DNA from: Saccoglossus kowalevskii
Taxonomy: Eukaryota > Hemichordata > Enteropneusta > Harrimaniidae
Assembly (NCBI RefSeq): GCF_000003605.2
Contig: NW_003133843.1
Coordinates: 297,259 to 317,650, forward strand
Direction of reading: 5' to 3'
DNA: 20,392 nt
Each line of letters opens with the position of its first letter. The stretch's first letter is position 1. The notes below the pieces were generated by a model. That model was not told where the DNA came from, did not search any database, and saw nothing but the letters and a program-made list of their open reading frames with translations. Position numbers and translations under genes: made by a program. This document shows, one piece after another, positions 410-19,291 of this stretch.

Positions 410-3400
410 TTACATCGAAACACAACTGTTGAAAAAGATAAATAAGATAATTATTGTGATTGGTATAATATGATTTTTTTAACACGCTCAGGATCAGAAC
501 AGTCAGAACAGTCTTTTACCATAGAGACAGTATCTGAATCATAGAATATAGTTTAAGATTAAATGCATACACATCACAGAATGGCAGACATACTAATACT
601 TACGTTCCAGTAACTTCCCAACTAGAGGCAAAGTTCGCAATAGATTCAGGAGATTCGTCATGAACTGCGCTACCTCCTCTAGTTTTCAATTCATCTTGAA
701 AGTCCATATTTCCGTTGGCATTACCACACATGCCTCCGATCGTTAACCTGTCTTCCATTACCATTGTGGTGTCGAGCATAATCTCGAGATGATACTTCTT
801 GTTCCAGAAAACAATTAATCCTGCTATGGGTGCACTGACAGTCATGTATCCTCCTTCGTCATTGTCTATTATCAGTCGACCCTCATTCAATTCGTAAGGG
901 AATGAATTAATTGTTGGAGAGATGCCGTCTATCTGAAAATGACAACAACATAAAAACGACATGTGGTTGTATGAAACGATTATTATTAATATCAGTATTG
1001 TATTATAATAGAATGTTCAATCTCAATAAAATGCAGTGCTATATCATATAACTTAGAGAAAAATGATAAACAAAAACTTGGAAGAACACTAAAAGAAACC
1101 ACAATGTTTACTGTACAAGCATGATTATACCAACTGTAATTTATTATATGTATCTGAAGAGTCAAAACGTGCATGTGCTGTCATAGCTACCGATACAATG
1201 CAATTTGTGTCGACAGTGTTTTTGTAATGTTCACATAGTTCGAAAATCAATTACAAATAATTATAATTATAATTTCCAAGTATCTGTCTTAACACTTAAT
1301 CACCGTTGTTATCGTTGTGTAGTGCTTTTTAGAATAAATTATGAATGATTGCAAAATTGCACATTATGTGTCCCATACCTCGGAAAACATGAAACTGTCA
1401 TGCTTTACATCGTTTGTCATGCAATGATATGTGTTATTTCGATTAAAACAGTAAATAGTGAATATTTAAATAGTAAATAGTAAATACAGTAAATAACTAT
1501 ATACAAAACGACAAGATAAGTTGTACATTTATATCATATATATTTATATGTAAATACACAAATATATATACTAAATTGTACATATTTGCTTGTAATATCA
1601 TTTTCTATTTACTTTACCATACCCGAATGTCCACACTCGAGTCATCATCCCCGATTATAGTGCCGATTTCAACGGCATGTCCCTCCACTGTAATATTGAC
1701 ATCAACCACACGTGCGGTCAGTCCCAGATACATGTTCGTTGCCGATATCTTATACGATGGTACAGCTCCAGGACCGTTGCTGATATCTTCCAACAATGTA
1801 TAGGCACATGACCCAGAGAAATCATATCTGTAGTCATCGAAAGTAAAGAAATGGGGGTCACCTTTAACGACACAGGTTTTCCACGCTGTGAACGAAACAA
1901 AAGTACATTCATTATCACACGCATAAAGATGTATAAAGATGTTTTGTAACCTCAGCTACACGAACTCGTGTGAGTAATACTGTCTCATATGAGCAATTGA
2001 GATTGTTTTTCCTACATACCTATTTTCGAATGTAACAACATAACGCATCTTTTATTCGTGATGCGCTAAAACAGCATGCGCATCCGACCAGTCACTCTTG
2101 CCTCACATGTTTTATTTTACGAATTTAAAATTTGTAACATCGGAAACGCTAACAAAACAGCAGTCTATATTCATGGAGCATGTTATCTGCTTAATATCAT
2201 TTACACCGTTGCATTTTGGTGATTCGATAATATGTTCTGTCATTTGAATGAGGACGTTCACATTCGTTCACGTGTAAATGTATTTAATAATCATAGAATA
2301 TAGAAATATACTGAAAAATACAACCTTGTAGCCTGAGAGCGTGTCACAAAACGTCTTACGTGATTGTGTTCTATAAGTATTGTAATAGACCACAACAAAT
2401 GACCAGGTTACATATGACGAGTCTCGAGCTTGATGTTAAAATAGACAACTACCGTGTTGTGTATTGTATCAGCTTTATCACGATCAAAAAGTAATTGTGG
2501 TGTGTGAAACTTGATAATAAATTGCAATCTCACCTGGAAATCTACAATAACCACCTGGGGAAAGTTCCTCCTGGATAGAACAGCAGTATCGGCATTTTGT
2601 CGCAATATTCAGCGGGTGTTTGTCACACTGATTCATTTTGGGCTCGTTAGCCTCTTCCTCAGCACAAGCCTTAATGAAATAAATTTGTATTTAGTGTATA
2701 AATTTCATTTTTTCATTTATATTCAGTTGTCTACATCATACACTATATCATGGATAGTAACATAACATACATTATTTTGTAGTTCATTCGGTATTTACTC
2801 CAATAAGGATTGGTGTAAACCCAGCCTACATTGATTAACCCATGGATTAACAAACACAATGTATAAACGTTACCCGACTCTGTTGACATTCAGAGCTGAA
2901 AACAATCTTTCCGTTATTGTTCCATAATTCAGTCATACAGGTCGGCTGAAATAAAAGTAGAATAATTATAAAAAAAATTGTAATAATCAACAGACTCGCT
3001 TTGTAACTTGTAATTTCAGTGTCGAACAAAAATATAGAAAACATATCCCGGAGCTTTCCCATTCACAGCCAAGCTATCATCCTAGAAACGTCAATATGAA
3101 GAACGTTACAGATTTGTTGTTTTCGTAATACCTCTCATATTTACAAACTAACATAATGTTGTAGTGTGTTGTCATATGGTTTACCTTATTTGAACTGCAT
3201 GTTTCGAACGCTGCGTTTTTAATACACTGACCAACTGTCAGGTCGTCTTGCTTGTGGCATTTAAGACACTTCAATGTACCTCTTCTGTTAGGTACTGCCT
3301 AGAAAGTTAAGTTATAACAATGTTGTACAAATTCTGTAAATGTTAACGTTGTACAAATAAGTGATATTCTTGTAGCAGTTTTGCATCATAAAATATTGAA

Positions 3401-3752
3401 CTGAGTCGTGAACGTTAATTACGTGTTTTTATAGACGAAAGAACTACTCAAAGTTGTTAAATTAAGACTTCGTTACTGTGTTATGATTTATTTAAGAAAA
3501 AGTTGCTCAGTAAAGCTGAAAAATAAACACACACGTGTGTTCATCGCTTCACGCTGGCTTAAACAACAACATTTTACTGAATGCTGAAAAAGTCCCAGGA
3601 ACGAAAAAATCCGAATTCACTAAATTAAATTCAATAATCACAATTAATGAGAAGTCTTTAGTATTTACCACATTTGGTTATGATAACAACTGAATACTTA
3701 CAAGTGTTTGAGACACTATTGCCATTAATAGAAACACACAGTATATCTTCAT
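410..3752 (-). CDS. Secreted Ly6-like (LU) + VWD domain protein, copy B, 7 coding exons, 326 aa
   Basis: Coding exons, read on the minus strand: 3702-3752, 3185-3298, 2874-2945, 2534-2669, 1623-1885, 604-932 and 410-425 (stop TAA). Each junction has GT/AG, and the phases (0,0,0,1,0,2) keep one open frame. The start MKIYC opens a signal peptide (residues 1-17, hydrophobic CVFLLMAIV). Residues 18-124 hold 12 cysteines (28, 31, 42, 51, 58, 75, 81, 94, 105, 108, 109, 121) in a C-x2-C ... C-x2-CC ... C pattern resembling invertebrate Ly6/uPAR three-finger domains. Residues about 129-322 are a VWD domain: KGDPHF at 132-137, a cysteine at 151, and GGMCGNANG at 278-286. There is one NIT glycosylation sequon at 188. 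The product is probably extracellular; its partner and role are unknown. Introns are 403, 239, 204, 648, 690 and 178 bp, and nothing recognisable was seen in them. The VWD call is firm. The LU call and the tiny last exon are inferred, the latter supported by the same structure in copy A. Confidence 0.82.
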
Positions 3753-3819: not shown

Positions 3820-3868
3820 CACACGTTCTCTGTCAATGTAAATCATTTTTTACTTCAATTTGGGTAAC

Positions 3869-4020
3869 AAATACAATGCGTTACATATCAAACTACTTTC
3901 GTCAGAAAGATGTTTATCTGGGATTAGGACTGCCTAATTGCGTAAAAAATACAACGTGTTACATATCAAACTACTTCCGTTAGAAAGCTGTTTATCTGGG
4001 ATTAGGATTGCCTAAGTGTT
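3869..4020. repeat. Two-copy tandem repeat (78-bp period) upstream of copy B
   Basis: Unit 1 begins at 3869 and unit 2 at 3947. Over the first 72 bases I count 7 mismatches (about 90% identity). Shared cores include TTACATATCAAACTACTT and GTTTATCTGGGATTAGGA. The array ends about 115 bases upstream of the copy B start codon, just beyond the TATA candidate, so it lies in the presumed promoter. Confidence 0.85.
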
Positions 4021-4340: not shown

Positions 4341-4420
4341 CGTTTTAAGAACGGTGGTGCGTGTTCAAATTTCATGTAAACACACAATGTATTTTACACG
4401 CGTTGTGTACGTTGCTATGA
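4341..4420. mobile_element. Truncated copy of the MITE family seen at 11321-11457
   Basis: A run of about 62 bases (4359-4420) matches the interior of the element at 11348-11410 with few differences. Shared blocks include GCGTGTTC, AATTTCATGTAAACA and TTACACGCGTTGTGTACGT. The left arm (ACGGTGGT) is partly kept, a stretch of about 12 bases is missing beside it, and the right inverted repeat is absent. This shows the sequence is dispersed rather than unique. Confidence 0.65.
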
Positions 4421-9737: not shown

Positions 9738-9912
9738 ATTCATCATATGAACAATTCTACATGCAAAACGACCTAGTCAGGAAAACTAAATTGCTTCTTC
9801 CGGTTCTGTAATATTATTATACATCTGTTGCCGTAACGTCATAACTTACAGCGTGACATAATTTTGTGGTATTTTACGGGGTATTTTCATTCTACGATAT
9901 TATAATAATAAT

Positions 9913-10038
9913 GTTATTACGTAGGTACTGCAAAGTATGCACTCAGACGGTACGCGATCGCATCGACCTCCGCAGCGCGTCAGTCGATACTTCCGCTGTA
10001 CTGTCTTCGTGCATACTTTGCAGTATCCTCGTAATAAC
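9913..10038. mobile_element. MITE-like palindromic element in the 3' UTR of copy A
   Basis: The 30-base left arm (9913-9942: GTTATTACG, then ACTGCAAAGTATGCAC) is the reverse complement of the right arm (10009-10038) with three mismatches near the middle. The interior (9943-10008) is GC-rich and has no open frame. It lies between the copy A stop codon and its polyadenylation signal and has no counterpart in copy B. A clear target duplication was not found. Confidence 0.75.
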
Positions 10039-10107
10039 CTCATAATACATTCACGTCTTTAAAGTGTTGGTCCGTACGTAGTGTCTTGTAATATATAGTC
10101 AATTCGT

Positions 10108-13100
10108 TCACACTGAAACACAACTGTTGATAAAGAAAACAGAAACAAAAATGTTATTGAGGATGATGTAATTTTCACTTTTACTGGTGTGTTAATGAAT
10201 ATCTACACACTGCATATTATGACGATTCTGATTGGTCAATGCCACATGGTGCACGATTGCGTGATGAATGCCATCTAAATTTAAATACCATACTAATACT
10301 CACGTTCCAGTAACTTCCCAACTACTTGCAAATATGTTGACGGATTCTTCAGATTCGTCTTCAACTGGTTGACCTCCTCTGGTTTTCAACTCATCTCGAA
10401 AATCACTATCACCGTTGGCATTACCACACATGCCCCCAATCGTTAACCTGCCTTCCATTACCATTGTCGTGTCATGCAATATCTCGAGATGGTATTTCTT
10501 GTTCCAGTAAACTATCAATCCTGCCATGGGTGCACTGACAGTCATGTACCCCCCTTTCGTATTGTTTATAACCAATTTACCCTCATTCAATTCATAGGGA
10601 AATGAATTAATTACGGGAGATATGCCGTCAATCTGAGAATGAAAAGCATGTGTTTTATTTGACGAATACAATTGTTAGTGGTAATGGAATATAAACGTTT
10701 ACGCGGGGGAGTCGTCACCTGCGCATGCGTCAGATGGTCATAGCGTGCCATTGTTTACAAACAAGCGTCTATGCGTTTTCAGCGTGTGTTGTTATCGTCG
10801 TTCGGGACCCAATTCCCGCGCGTGCGCAGGTGACGACCCTCCCGCTTTAACATTCGTGTGAAATGAACAAAGTTCAAGTAAGGTAATTCATATATGTATA
10901 CTGACTTTTAAAAAATCGTCTAAAATTTGTTTTCCACGTATATTTTACCGTACCCGTATTTCCACCGTTGTTTCATTTTGTCCGATCATAGTGCCGATTT
11001 CAACGGCATGTCCCTCCACTGTAATATTCACATCCACCAAGCGTGCGGTCCGTCCTATAAACATGTTTGTTGCCGATACCTTGTAGGCTGGGACGGCCCC
11101 GGGACCGTTGCTGACGTCTTGTAACAAAGTATATGCACATGACCCGGAATAGTCGTATCTATACTGATCGAAGGTTGTGAAATGTGGATCACCCTTAACG
11201 ACACATTTTTTCCATGCTGAGGGGAAAAACGAAAGTACATTTAATACACCCATAAATAAAAACAATGTTGAGTTATTGCACATAGTAGTACTTTATACGT
11301 ATTGTGTAGTACTGTATATAGTATTAAAGCGCGGTGGTCGTAACGCGGCGCGTGTTCGAATTTCATGTAAACAAAGAATGTAATTTACACGCGTTGTGTA
11401 CGTCGCTATGGATCCCAGATTGGACAGGACGCGGCGCGACGACCGCCGCCCTAATACTAATATGTGAATGAAATAAAATAAAGTTGAATTTTCTTTGAAT
11501 TTGTTGCATACTTCCAATAGCCGCAGTAGATTCTGACACTTTATTCACATTTTTTACAGCCATGTTTATATTTGAAATGGTAAATACGCTCGCGTATATC
11601 TAAGTTTGATTGACTCTCACATGCCGGCCGCCATTTTGTCTTTGTCAAAATTACAAATTCTTGCAAATATAAGAAGATTAGTCACCTGTCAATGCCATAA
11701 TCATCAGTATATTCACGGCAATTGTGGAAGTTAGTTAAAGTTAAACAAACATATAGATCACAATAAAATACTGCAAGTTGACGCTTATTATATTTCACGC
11801 CAACTGTCCTAAAAGACCTGGTCGAATTTGCACGTCATAATTAGCTTGCAGTCGGAACAGTTCTGTCAACTAGCAGCGAAAATCAGCTGATAAATTGTGT
11901 TTAATTACAAACATTACAACACACCGGAGTGACATATCGCCGATGAACTAAACCATGCTGGCTTCGTCAGGAATCAAGCAACAAACCTAAGTTACTTGTA
12001 TATATAACAAATAAAACAAGAATCCTCTGTAAAAACAAACAAACAAATCAAAATCCCGAACGGAAGCGAATTAAAAGTGTTTGAAAATTGGCCCGGGATT
12101 GAATGTCGGATCGTCGTCGGTGTCTCGGTGGCATTACTAGCCACATCAATTCTGTTATAACGATGTTAAATTCCGTAATAACGAAGCCATATTCATTGAA
12201 TTATTTGTATTATAAATATTATTTTTGAAAACTTTTGAAATATTATTCTGTTTCCTGAATTGCGCGCAGGAACTAATAATTAGAGACACTGTATATTTCA
12301 CAAAAAGTGGATATGTGTAAAGTTTCAGATTAGTTTTTATCTTAATGCGATTAGGTCTGTTAATTTTAATAATACAAACTGACCTGGGAATCTACAATAA
12401 CCACCAGGGGCTAGTTCCTCTGCGATAGTACAGCAATATCGGCACTTGGTCGCGACGTGCAACGGCTGTACATCACATTGGTTTGACTTGGGCTCATTTG
12501 CCTCTACTTCAGAACAAGCCTGGAAAATACAATATTAGTGTGGCAAAGTGGTTTTGTATTTATTATTCTAATGAAACTGAATTTGAAAATATCGTATTGA
12601 ATGTGTCTAATGTTACAAGTGATGAAGACTTGATTTCATAATTAACTTAGAAGTTTAGGTTTTACCCGACTCTGTTTACACCCGGAGCTGAAGATAATAC
12701 GTCCATTATTGTTCCATAATTCTGTCATACATGTCGGCTGAAAAGATGAAATAAGTGCAACAACACAATGTGAGTCAACTTGCGACCACAGAAAGAATTT
12801 GTGTTCAACTTGGAATACATAGCTAACTGATATAATCATTCCTTTCTCTGGAGGGGGGGGGGGTCTGAACAAACGTTTATTTCGGAATTGAAATTTAATG
12901 TAAACATATTGTTTTAAAGACCATTCATTGCACTATACAAAGTTAGAAGACGGTTTTATTTATTTCTAAAGCGGATGGGTCGTTGGCTGCACACAAGCGA
13001 GAAATGAATCTTAAGCTAAAGCGCAAAGGCCCATGGGTAGGCGCTTGTTTGAAAACAACCCGTGATGTGTCCGCCTTTATTAAAAAAAAATATTTCTGCA

Positions 13101-14563
13101 GCGTATAGAAAATTTAAAAAGTTAATTATTTGAATGTTTTCTAGGGATTCATAATATCAGGCCACATTAAACAAATCGTAGATATGATCTATTTTGTATA
13201 TATTGAAACAACCTAGTGTATCATCTAGTTATACAATGGCGCATTCGCTAGCGAGATAAACTGTTAACTGAAATCATGCATACAATTTGTTTGTATCATA
13301 TAAATATATATTATGGAATGTTGGCATCTTAATTTCTGTTTTTGGATTGACTGCAGTATTTTACCAAGTAAAATCATATTTAATAAAGTTAGTATTCATA
13401 CATGAGTTGTTGAACACACTACATAGATTGAAATTTCATTCAGCTTCTTTCAGTTATAATTCAAGACAAATAAATCGCAAAATTACAAATTATTATAGCA
13501 AATTATCTTTTTCTATAATATTCTTGTGTAATCAGTTATTATGAAAATTATTTATAGGTGCATATGGAATACATTTCGTTATGGATTGTTCTTAATATAA
13601 TTTTTTGAAATATCTTGTCAAAATCAATTTATTCAGTTTTCTCCCCCAAAACACGAAAGATCGTAGTATTCTGCGATGAAATAATGTAAATTATATGTTT
13701 TACGTTTTTTTTATCATTCATATAGCTTACCTTATGTTGTTCGCACGTTTCAGTCTCACGATTTTTAACACACTCGGCAACTGTCAGGTCGTCTTGTTTG
13801 CGGCATACCAGACATTCCAACGTACCACGCCTATTAGGTACTGCCTAAAAGTGAAAGTTACAATTAGATAACACGTGTGAAATGATCATGTTGAGCAAAT
13901 AAGAATCCATGAAAAAAAAAACCATGATAAGTTTTTAGACGGAGACATATCAATTACTCTGTTTTGTACCAGTTCTACTTTTCAATATTTCGTGAATTTA
14001 TCTGTTCTACTAACAGATCGCGTGTGAGATTTCGCTATTATCAATTAAAATCAATTCCAATGTGTTAGTGCCAGAGAGAGAGAGAGAGAACATTCGTCAT
14101 TTAACTCGCAGTGCTTTCTAGATAATCATATTTGGAAAAGAGATACTTTTTTACCAACGCTTTTTATTTCAGGGCATGTTAGGCCATTTTTTGCACATCT
14201 TATACTGGCCACCGTCTTGATACGAGTTATAGTGTTTACAGAAAACGACAATTGGTGTTAAAAGTAAACAAGTTTTGATCAAAAAGCATCAAAAGTTCAT
14301 TTCATCACACGTGATTTTGACTAAATTGTGCATGTATAATATAACCTGCTAATGGTTAGTGCAACAAGATTGACTTGTATGAGACTGTGGTTAGATATGA
14401 AGAAACACCACAATTTCATCAATTTATGAAAGCAAATTCCGTTTTCGCTAAGGAAGGAAAGACACAACGTGAATATTCGCTATACAGCATCTGATAACCC
14501 TGAAATACTTACAATTGTTTGAGACACTAGAACAACAAATAGCAAGGAACAGTATATCTTCAT
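10108..14563 (-). CDS. Secreted Ly6-like (LU) + VWD domain protein, copy A, 7 coding exons, 326 aa
   Basis: Coding exons, read on the minus strand: 14513-14563, 13731-13844, 12666-12737, 12384-12519, 10954-11216, 10304-10632 and 10108-10123 (stop TGA). Lengths and phases equal those of the downstream paralog. The start MKIYC leads a 17-residue signal peptide exon. All 12 cysteines of the LU-like region and all 4 of the VWD region and tail are conserved. KGDPHF (132-137) and GGMCGNANG (278-286) mark the VWD domain. By hand count 252 of 326 residues match copy B. Differences cluster in the signal peptide and in exposed-looking charged stretches. Copy A has two extra N-glycosylation sequons (NET at 205, NNT at 235) besides the shared NIT at 188. 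Introns are 668, 993, 146, 1167, 321 and 180 bp; those at 12738-13730, 11217-12383 and 10633-10953 each contain a palindromic element listed separately. Intron 1 (13845-14512) holds only an AG microsatellite. The donors at 10953 (GTACGG) and 12383 (GTCAGT) are non-consensus beyond GT. Confidence 0.82.
10702..10845. mobile_element. MITE-like element with TTTA flanks in copy A intron 5
   Basis: Left arm 10703-10729 and right arm 10819-10845 are 27-base inverted repeats with about three mismatches, sharing GTCGTCACCTGCGCA. TTTA stands directly outside both ends (10698-10701 and 10846-10849) and could be a target duplication of TTTA or TTA. PIF/Harbinger elements typically duplicate a 3-bp TWA site. 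The element is GC-rich, non-coding and absent from the matching intron of copy B. Confidence 0.75.
11321..11457. mobile_element. MITE with inverted ends in copy A intron 4
   Basis: The left end (GTATTAAAGCGCGGTGGTCG) pairs imperfectly with the right end, whose reverse complement begins GTATTAGGGCGGCGGTCGTC. The interior matches the partial copy at 4341-4420, which confirms a repeated family. No open frame of note is present. The rest of intron 4 (11217-12383) is AT-rich and unremarkable. Confidence 0.75.
12967..13079. mobile_element. Imperfect palindromic element in copy A intron 2
   Basis: TAAAGCGGA...ACAAGCG at the left (12967-12999) pairs with the reverse complement of the right end (13041-13079: TAAAGGCGGA...ACAAGCG) with gaps and mismatches. 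The arms are about 33-39 bases. The right side is followed by a poly-A run. It is probably an old MITE. A G11 run lies nearby at 12853-12863. Confidence 0.5.
14073..14089. repeat. (AG)n microsatellite
   Basis: Eight AG units plus one A, in intron 1 of copy A. Simple sequence repeat, likely length-polymorphic. Confidence 0.9.
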
Positions 14564-17056: not shown

Positions 17057-17348
17057 GACGCAATATGTTGATGCATAATTATGACCGTATGACCCTCATA
17101 AAAATCATCAGTGCGTCCTGCGGGTCGCAGGAATTTTGGCGTCAAGTCGTGAGTAATCCGCTCCTCCATTTGATCTGCAGTAGTTGCTATATGGGCTCTT
17201 GTAACACTAGAACCTCCCTCGATTTCAAATGGAACGCTCCAAATCGTCATTCGTATGTACTACGTAGACGCTTTGTGTTTATACTTTTTCAAGGTGTTAG
17301 CTTGTTTCTGATTGGCTCTTAACTTCTAACGGTCCTCAACATTTAAAC

Positions 17349-19291
17349 ATGGCGCCAGTGCCAAGGCAGGTCGATCTCCGTTGTTTCTTTGGGGGCAGGC
17401 CATCCAGCCCGTCTACTAGTTCTCCCGTTGAAGCTTCACCAGCTACGTCCAGTGAAAAGCCCTACGTTTTACCAAAGAAGGATCATTCTTTCAACGATGG
17501 GTGGCTAAATCTTTTTAAATGGCTTTGTTACATATCAGACCGAATCGTTATGGAATGTGAAGTTTGTGTGAGAGCGAATACCAAAAACCCTTTCACTGAC
17601 GGGTGTTCAAATTTTCGAAACTCAACTCTCATCCGGCATCAATACTCTAGAAGTCACATATGTTGTCCACCAAGTCAGACTTTACGGCCGCTCGTCAGGT
17701 AGCAAACGAGAGGAAATATCAAGGTACAAGTGACAATCTAAAATCATGTTTATGTTATGGCTAAACGGGATCTCCCTTGCGATGTTTTTACCGATTTCAT
17801 GCATGTTCAGAATTTGAACGGTTTAAATATTGACTATTATAAACGGCAACAGATCGTCATGGAGTTCGAAGAATGCATCGAAAAAGTAATCGCAAAATCT
17901 CTACTCGACAAGATACATGTGAGTGACTATGTTGGTATTATGCTTGACGAAATTTGTGACATTACCGTACATAAAAAACTTGTTATTTATGCCAGATATG
18001 TTGAAGATGGTGAAGCGAAAGTATCCTTTCTTGGAAACGAGCAGATAACTGATGCACTGCTGCTGGGATTGAAACCGCTTTGATTGATTTTTTGCTAAGA
18101 AAGGGTATCTGTGACGAGGATATACATAAGGTGTTTGGACTAGGCACTGATGGTGCAGCTGTTATGAGCGGACGTTTAAATGGTCTTGATGCTAAACTTA
18201 AAACTAGGAACTCTGGACTTGTTACAGTACATTGCATTGCACATAGACTGAACCTTGCTGCTTCTCAGGCAGGCAAAGACATTGACTATTGTAAAGATTA
18301 TCATAGTATTATTCATTCTGTTTATATTTACTATAGTAATTCACCAACCAGATATGACAAACTCGGAGAATTACAAACTGTTCTGCATGGTAAGGCAAAA
18401 GAGATTACTGAGCCTATATGTGTTCGCTGGCTGTCAGTTGAATCAGCTGTAAAAATGATTCTGAGCAATTTTGAGCCAATATACATGTCTCTGAAAAATG
18501 ACAAAAAATCAGAGAAAGCTGATGTATTACTCAAATTTATCTCAAACTCACTGTTTGTATTATTCACTGCATTATTGATAGATGTGCTCACAGTCATTTG
18601 AGTCTTACGTTTCAGAAAATTGTAAATTTATCTCATATAAGGAAAAGTGTAGATTCAACTATGGCAACTTGGAAATGGAAATAGGCTCAAACAAAGTTGA
18701 TGAAGTGTTTACTCATTTAGGTGATGTTCCTCCTAATGTAAAAAACACAAATATGGAAATTAATGACAACACTCAACTCAGACAAAAATTTACAAGTTTG
18801 AGAGAACGATACATAAACAAATATGATAATTTGGAGGTTAGGTTTCTTGCTGAGGAAATGAACATTCTTAACTGCTTTGATGTTGTGTTAAATCCAGAGA
18901 GATACCCTGAAAATGTAACTTACCTGACTATGGAATCAACCAGCTTGATAACCTGTTAAATCACTGCAATGATGTAGATGGCATAGATGTTGATAGAGCT
19001 AGGGGTAATTTTCTTTTATTTAAGCACTTTACAAATCTTAAAACACTGCTCTTACATTTGATCAGTATATGAAGGTGCTTATCACTGACTTTGAAGATGA
19101 GTACCCAGATTTTGTCATACTTGGTCAGATTGCTCTTGTTATACCGGTGTCATCAGCACCTTGTGAGAGAGGATTCTCAGTACAGAGTGCAATCAAACAA
19201 AGTAAGAAATAGACTGAACCCTCTTAGACTAAATAGGTTGATGTTTATAAAATCGGTAGGTCCTGTCATAGATGAGTTCGACTCCCTATAA
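17349..19291 (+). pseudogene. Broken hAT transposase, ZNF862-like
   Basis: At least five open segments in shifting frames: 17349-17702, 17757-18083, 18080-18601, 18582-18959 and about 19068-19291. The first has a basic, Ser/Pro-rich start and a zinc-finger-like block (MECEVC ... LIRHQYSRSH). The second has VGIMLDEICDITVHKKLVIY, matching the first catalytic aspartate region. The third has GLGTDGAAVM (second aspartate) and VTVHCIAHRLNLA, then CVRWLSVESAV. The last carries the hAT dimerisation block: IPVSSAPCERGFS, then after a frameshift RLNPLRLNRLMFIKSVGP. This order and wording match the ZNF862/hAT proteins common in aquatic invertebrates. Frameshifts near 17700, 18080, 18590 and 19200 and a stop before 19000 rule out a working enzyme. 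Confidence 0.85.

Follow-up and report, generated by a model that had tools for sequence, protein, structure and literature searches.

A multigene family of predicted secreted proteins joining a 12-cysteine N-terminal domain to a single VWD domain in Saccoglossus kowalevskii

VWD domains occur in several secreted systems. Human FCGBP, as described in the sections of PMC10880436 drawn on here, comprises 12 D assemblies (VWD-C8-TIL-E) and one VWD, and terminates in this isolated domain. The first strand of its VWD domains is tied to the rest of the domain by a disulfide, and cleavage at the GDPH motif raises the protease resistance of the VWD; in D10, cleavage is blocked when Asp is replaced by Ala or Asn, or His by Asn (PMC10880436). 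Gel-forming mucins and VWF also carry the VWD domain, and in MUC5AC-D3 the intermolecular disulfides are described in C8-3 and TIL3 (PMC11933400). For the limpet adhesive-mucus protein P-vulgata_4, vWFD is the sole domain listed (PMC7333891). A second system for comparison is the LU (Ly6/uPAR) domain, which is described as having ten cysteines paired 1-5, 2-3, 4-6, 7-8 and 9-10, as occurring mostly singly or in repeats and in few fusions, and as being encoded by genes with an internal intron at the tip of loop 2 and, usually, phase-1 flanking introns (PMC6600238).

The window, by which we mean the whole 20,392-nucleotide stretch analyzed (C2559:297259-317650, in a host genome of 572 Mb and 4830 contigs), contains two tandem paralogs, copies A and B (Table 1). 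Like FCGBP, their products are putative secreted VWD proteins with GDPH and CGNxNG motifs and cysteines at both, but they have one VWD without C8 or TIL and an N domain of another type with 12 cysteines. The VWD domain is shared with the gel-forming mucins and VWF, whereas C8, TIL, the PTS region, the cystine knot and the C8/TIL polymerization cysteines are lacking. P-vulgata_4, which we compare by description only, is likewise a secreted invertebrate protein, but of 830 residues as against 326 here (PMC7333891). With CD59, SLURP1 and LYNX1, the family shares a secreted cysteine-rich unit, the LxCxxC start, the cysteine order C1-C7 plus CC and the arrangement in tandem clusters; it differs from these LU proteins in having 12 cysteines, a CC-x10/11-C ending without Asn, other introns and the VWD fusion, and in lacking statistical sequence support for the relationship. 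Single-VWD secreted proteins are already known, and the lone VWD, which a first-pass annotation had contrasted with the large multi-domain proteins that usually contain this domain, is less unusual than stated there, given the C-terminus of FCGBP and P-vulgata_4. What is new here is a multigene family with a 12-cysteine head. The annotation was right that the layout has no named family, at least in the libraries and literature searched, and no fusion of VWD to Ly6/LU was found in that literature; the sections of PMC10448888 drawn on mention VWD only in vitellogenins.

Table 1. Positions of genes, exons and other elements in the window (residue numbers refer to the precursor protein; a slash marks the splice site).
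Feature	Position	Strand	Description
Copy A gene	3752-410	-	seven exons, 326 aa, ending TCVSM and stop
Copy A exon 1	3702..3752	-	ATG and 17-residue signal-peptide-like segment MKIYCVFLLMAIVSQTL; donor GTAAGT, phase 0
Copy A exon 2	3185..3298	-	N domain, Cys 28, 31, 42, 51; LKCLKC start
Copy A exon 3	2874..2945	-	N domain, Cys 58, 75; PTCMTELW..
Copy A exon 4	2534..2669	-	N domain, Cys 81, 94, 105, 108, 109, 121; TKCRYCC..YCRFP
Copy A exon 5	1623..1885	-	VWD first half; Cys 129, GDPH 133-136, Cys 151
Copy A exon 6	604..932	-	VWD second half; GGMCGNANG (Cys 281), ..SWEVTG; ends within donor GGAAC/GTAAGT
Copy A exon 7	410..425	-	16 nt; completes T322, then Cys 323-V-S-M-stop
Copy B gene, tandem paralog of A	10108..14563	-	seven exons, 326 aa, ending TCVSV and stop; GDPH at 133
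Copy B exon 1	14563-14513	-	
Copy B exon 2	13844-13731	-	
Copy B exon 3	12737-12666	-	
Copy B exon 4	12519-12384	-	
Copy B exon 5	11216-10954	-	
Copy B exon 6	10632-10304	-	
Copy B exon 7	10123-10108	-	
Tandem duplication	3860-4015		78 nt, 90% identical, immediately upstream of copy A exon 1
Repeat, first unit	4356-4419		64 nt, 91% identical to second unit; upstream of gene A
Repeat, second unit	11347-11410		in copy B intron
MITE-like inverted repeat	9905-10046		49-nt arms, 82% complementary; ends about 60 nt beyond copy B stop
Broken transposase-like gene	17301-19291	+	pieces in several frames

The anatomy of these genes, with seven exons, a signal-peptide-like start, a 12-cysteine domain and a VWD, is in our judgment close to certain. 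The spliced model reproduces the coordinates, the length and the cysteine count first proposed for copy A. The introns of both copies are GT..AG throughout, with phases 0, 0, 0, 1, 0 and 2, and the exons of copy B lie 9.3-10.8 kb from their counterparts in copy A. The signal peptide in exon 1 of copy A was called by eye from a hydrophobic stretch; since C5 falls within it, the mature protein would have 16 cysteines. These are common to both copies, as had been claimed, and occupy identical positions in the spliced A and B: 28, 31, 42, 51, 58, 75, 81, 94, 105, 108, 109 and 121 in the N domain and 129, 151, 281 and 323 in the VWD. The two proteins are identical at 252 of 326 residues. Their low dN relative to dS (0.15 and 0.72, respectively; dN/dS 0.21, NG86) and the location of most nucleotide differences at third codon positions (53, 35 and 112 at positions 1, 2 and 3 in exons 1-6) argue that the reading frame is under selection.

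A few other elements were observed in the window, in which neither Rfam matches nor tRNA genes were detected. The first piece of the transposase-like gene matches PF25431 zf-C17orf113 (E 2.4e-12) and the second weakly matches DUF4371 (E 0.053); we take these to be the remains of a hAT-like element. Relatives of the MITE-like repeat occur in L031 and L021, two of the stretches that also contain family members.

Judged by sequence comparison across the genome, the 12-cysteine plus VWD layout is that of a multigene family. A query with the mature protein gave at least 94 genome matches at E<=0.001, many of them to the VWD only, and a query with the N domain gave at least 44 at E<=1. Exon 4 was recovered with the latter at E<=0.002 from at least 16 loci: A, B, two further close copies (C and D) and four others on C2559, two each on C128, C1735 and C2039, and one each on C1706 and C3134. 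The eight loci on C2559 lie within about 300 kb. At 16/16 N-domain loci, VWD exons are found downstream on the same strand, and the compact layout of signal peptide, 12-cysteine domain and lone VWD that had been proposed for the window is thus borne out. Exon 5 is present at 15 of these loci; at the 16th (L044 with L046) only exon 6 was found, and the preceding stretch consists partly of N letters. Signal-peptide exons were identified in A-D, whereas a search of nine divergent loci gave none that was convincing.

Four further matches were kept outside the 16. A weak exon 4 lies at C2559:372049 (E 0.014), and an exon-6-like match nearby (in L022) suggests a further member. There is also an exon-2 match on C2108. 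L045 is a decayed copy that retains exons 2, 3 and 6 and, interrupted by a stop, exon 5; no exon 4 was found in it. C4099 was considered as a further full member and rejected: the pieces found there, exon 5 at 27277 and exons 6-7 at 10150, are all VWD, and no N domain was found. L026, which has a frameshift in exon 4, is likewise a decayed copy. No relatives were confirmed in viral contigs with the VWD query (6 stretches) or the N-domain profile (27 stretches).

For the six pairs among A-D, dN/dS ranges from 0.21 to 0.34. The first N-domain exon is less conserved than exons 3-4 in five of the six pairs (0.18-0.40 versus 0.07-0.21 overall), the exception being B-D (0.18 versus 0.21). Such tandem copies under purifying selection fit a putative diversified family of secreted binding or mucus proteins, not decaying copies.

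The end of the protein depends on a tiny last exon. Beyond exon 6, the reading frame of A runs into a TAA and that of B into a TGA, which lie inside the donors GGAAC/GTAAGT and GGAAC/GTGAGT, respectively. Taken by itself, this stop would yield a product of 322 aa with a VWD that lacks its last cysteine. However, the stop sits in a strong donor in A-D, the acceptor and the T/Cys exon are kept in 4/4, and an odd number of mature cysteines, 15, would be left. The conserved acceptor, followed by TTGTGTTTC with the codon split T/TGT, lies 178 nt (A) or 180 nt (B) further on, and 31 of 37 nucleotides around exon 7 are identical between the two copies. C (L021) ends in TCLSV and D (L022) in TCVSM before the stop, with the codon split as in A and B. 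The conserved donor, acceptor and T/Cys exon led us to reject the 322-aa model, to which we accord next to no likelihood, and C323, supplied by exon 7, is the fourth VWD cysteine, conserved in the four close copies. Exon 7 was identified in 10 of the 14 members with an exon 6 end (A-D, L023, L025, L026, L029, L031 and L032); for the six divergent members among these, the search or profile used favored a cysteine. The missing calls in L027, L028, L030 and L034 reflect the use of a wrong donor or an alignment ending at exon 6 and need not represent absences.

The full-length VWD is readily recognized. Pfam PF00094 matches copy A (E 3.1e-14, 54 bits) and copy B (E 2.9e-15, 57.3 bits) well above the cut-off of 22.9 bits, and scores 48-61.5 bits in C, L025, L029 and L034, so that 6/6 full or nearly full models scanned contain the domain. 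It is the sole Pfam domain in these models, with neither C8 nor TIL, and the reading frame stops four residues beyond the VWD tryptophan region, in exon 7. The elements C129, GDPH 133-136, C151, CGNxNG with C281, and C323 are found in A-D. A phmmer search of the PDB gave FCGBP as the best match (E 1.8e-55 over six domains), with an alignment that runs through GDPH and CGNxNG.

Because TIL/E modules precede each VWD in FCGBP, this nearness could mean that the family descends from a VWD-C8-TIL assembly that has lost C8 and TIL, in which case the N domain would be a degenerate TIL/E-like module of the preceding assembly. The last cysteine, C323, presumably at the position of the cysteine that joins the VWD to C8 in D assemblies, would agree with such a descent. 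Against it, C8, TIL and VWC models match 0/14 N domains at E<=10, the 12-cysteine unit is recognizably conserved, and it differs from TIL in its CC and C-x2-C pattern. We therefore consider a reduced D assembly improbable.

The nature of the N domain was assessed from an alignment of 14 of the 16 domains (L032 and L044 were left out, and three rows are partial). Mean column identity is 60%, and there are 12 cysteine columns, in which D lacks C108 and the partial rows lack the ends. In copy D (L022 2568-2703), the loss of C108 (CRYYC) is accompanied by a gain of C200 in the VWD, so that 16 mature cysteines remain. Exon 4 is the exon conserved most widely across the family. The annotation had likened residues 18-124 to a LU domain, and the cysteine order C1-x2-C2..C7..C8C9 indeed fits LU up to the CC pair, with two cysteines in addition. 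Spacing of the LU type was matched by 55 of 3,000,000 random placements and by 207 of 1,000,000 gap permutations, for a pattern chosen post hoc. This rarity, the LxCxxC start, the CC pair and the C4-x6-C5 and C6-x5-C7 spacings, as in CD59, all speak for a true LU (three-finger) domain with an extra loop 3 disulfide, exon-shuffled to a VWD and binding as three-finger proteins do. So does the CMT after C5, as in SLURP1 and LYNX1. Furthermore, when the N-domain profile was aligned with hhalign to eight human LU sequences, C1-C5 fell in register unaided, and with mact 0 also C6, C7 and the CC pair.

The profile searches gave no support for LU, however. The Pfam scan of the N domain alone returned no match at E<=10 for A and B and no LU model at E<=10 for the 14 domains; the best alternative was Dumpy_DPY, in 7/14 members with a best E of 0.25. 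In the PDB, the N domain alone matched nothing at E<=10, and the sole match to the family profile was an unrelated chain (E 1.5). The hhalign score was 16.6 with a probability of 2.3%, and after trimming the score of 13.69 was exceeded by that of the reversed profile (16.4); the real score was equaled or surpassed by 34 of 300 shuffles and 57 of 300 gap-permuted profiles. The LU ending, C9-x4-C10 followed by Asn, is absent, since CC-x10/11-C is here followed by R, K, P, A or M.

Two internal introns, both in phase 0, fall between C4/C5 and C6/C7, away from the tip of loop 2, and the LU-type sole internal intron between C5 and C6 is not present. In A-D, the flanking introns are in phases 0 and 1, with an alternative at the first boundary of C. 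The phase 1 of intron 4 would fit LU genes, as would the flanks of the divergent members, where the 3' phase is 1 and the start of exon 2 reads most simply, by eye and with no first exons found, as following a phase-1 intron.

The N domain appears LU-like in the order of its cysteines, C1 through the CC pair. Pfam, PDB, profile-profile alignment, the placing of the internal introns and the lack of a CC-x4-CN ending argue against membership in the LU (Ly6/uPAR) family. We regard a true LU domain as possible, though the balance tilts against it. Alternatively, the N domain may have a 12-cysteine fold peculiar to it, or one that belongs to a different known superfamily, and the LU-like spacing would then have arisen by convergence. 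Every test of LU homology being negative, the introns and ending being non-canonical and 12 rather than 10 cysteines being conserved among the aligned members, this explanation falls just short of an even bet; the cysteine order is nevertheless seldom matched by chance, and nothing positive points to another fold, Dumpy_DPY being the best that Pfam offers.

Our main hypothesis for the working of the protein, to which we assign a probability of roughly 0.5 as a whole, cleavage and binding role included, is that of a small secreted binding protein that would cleave itself at GDPH into two disulfide-held chains. In the secretory pathway, the protein would close the two disulfides usual for a VWD, C129-C281 and C151-C323, a pairing that we assume from the annotation of VWF. 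The Asp134-Pro135 bond of GDPH would hydrolyze autocatalytically, as in FCGBP and MUC2, leaving chains 18-134 and 135-326 joined by C129-C281, and cleavage would render the VWD protease-resistant. The N domain, placed at the end of the first VWD strand, would be the binding part. Since C8 and TIL are lacking, the protein is expected to be monomeric, without mucin-style polymerization; it may be a soluble ligand-binding protein or a component of mucus or body fluid, of which tandem duplication would provide variety. In FCGBP D10, mutation of Q4094 left cleavage partial. In A and B a Ser appears to stand in its place, on our reading of FDDYRYDFSGSC against the FCGBP sequence, and cleavage may therefore be incomplete.

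GDPH is found in 8 of the 15 members with exon 5 (A-D, L025, L026, L033 and L035), whereas the other seven (L027, L028, L029, L030, L031, L032 and L034) have GDPR. A tree was built from 11 of the 14 aligned N domains, without the partial L026, L033 and L035. One branch, with modest support (80/78), separates the six GDPR rows from the others, and another, supported at 100/100, groups A-D. The GDPR members are probably uncleaved and would constitute an uncleaved branch; we infer this loss of cleavage, as GDPR is not among the FCGBP D10 mutants in the sections of PMC10880436 drawn on here. In the divergent members L033 (5868-5959) and L035 (568-469), the motif reads CSCWGDPHC, with two extra cysteines flanking GDPH.

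The most far-reaching interpretation combines these elements into a large LU-VWD fusion family, with a sixth-disulfide three-finger head on a stand-alone VWD, a single-disulfide tether after self-cleavage at GDPH and a GDPR sister branch without cleavage. We put this combination forward tentatively and think it doubtful. If neither the LU head nor the use as a cleaved and uncleaved pair holds, what remains is an expanded, ordinary family of secreted cysteine-rich proteins. If the head is a LU domain, it would add one more fusion for a domain described as rarely fused, and a LU-VWD fusion would be a clear exception to the picture of LU as a domain that seldom leaves its own kind. Such a family would also offer a natural cleaved and uncleaved pair with which to study the function of VWD cleavage. 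According to PMC10880436, the purpose of GDPH cleavage is unknown; a family of small single-VWD proteins for which one genome encodes both GDPH and GDPR members would make this question testable without the giant mucins.
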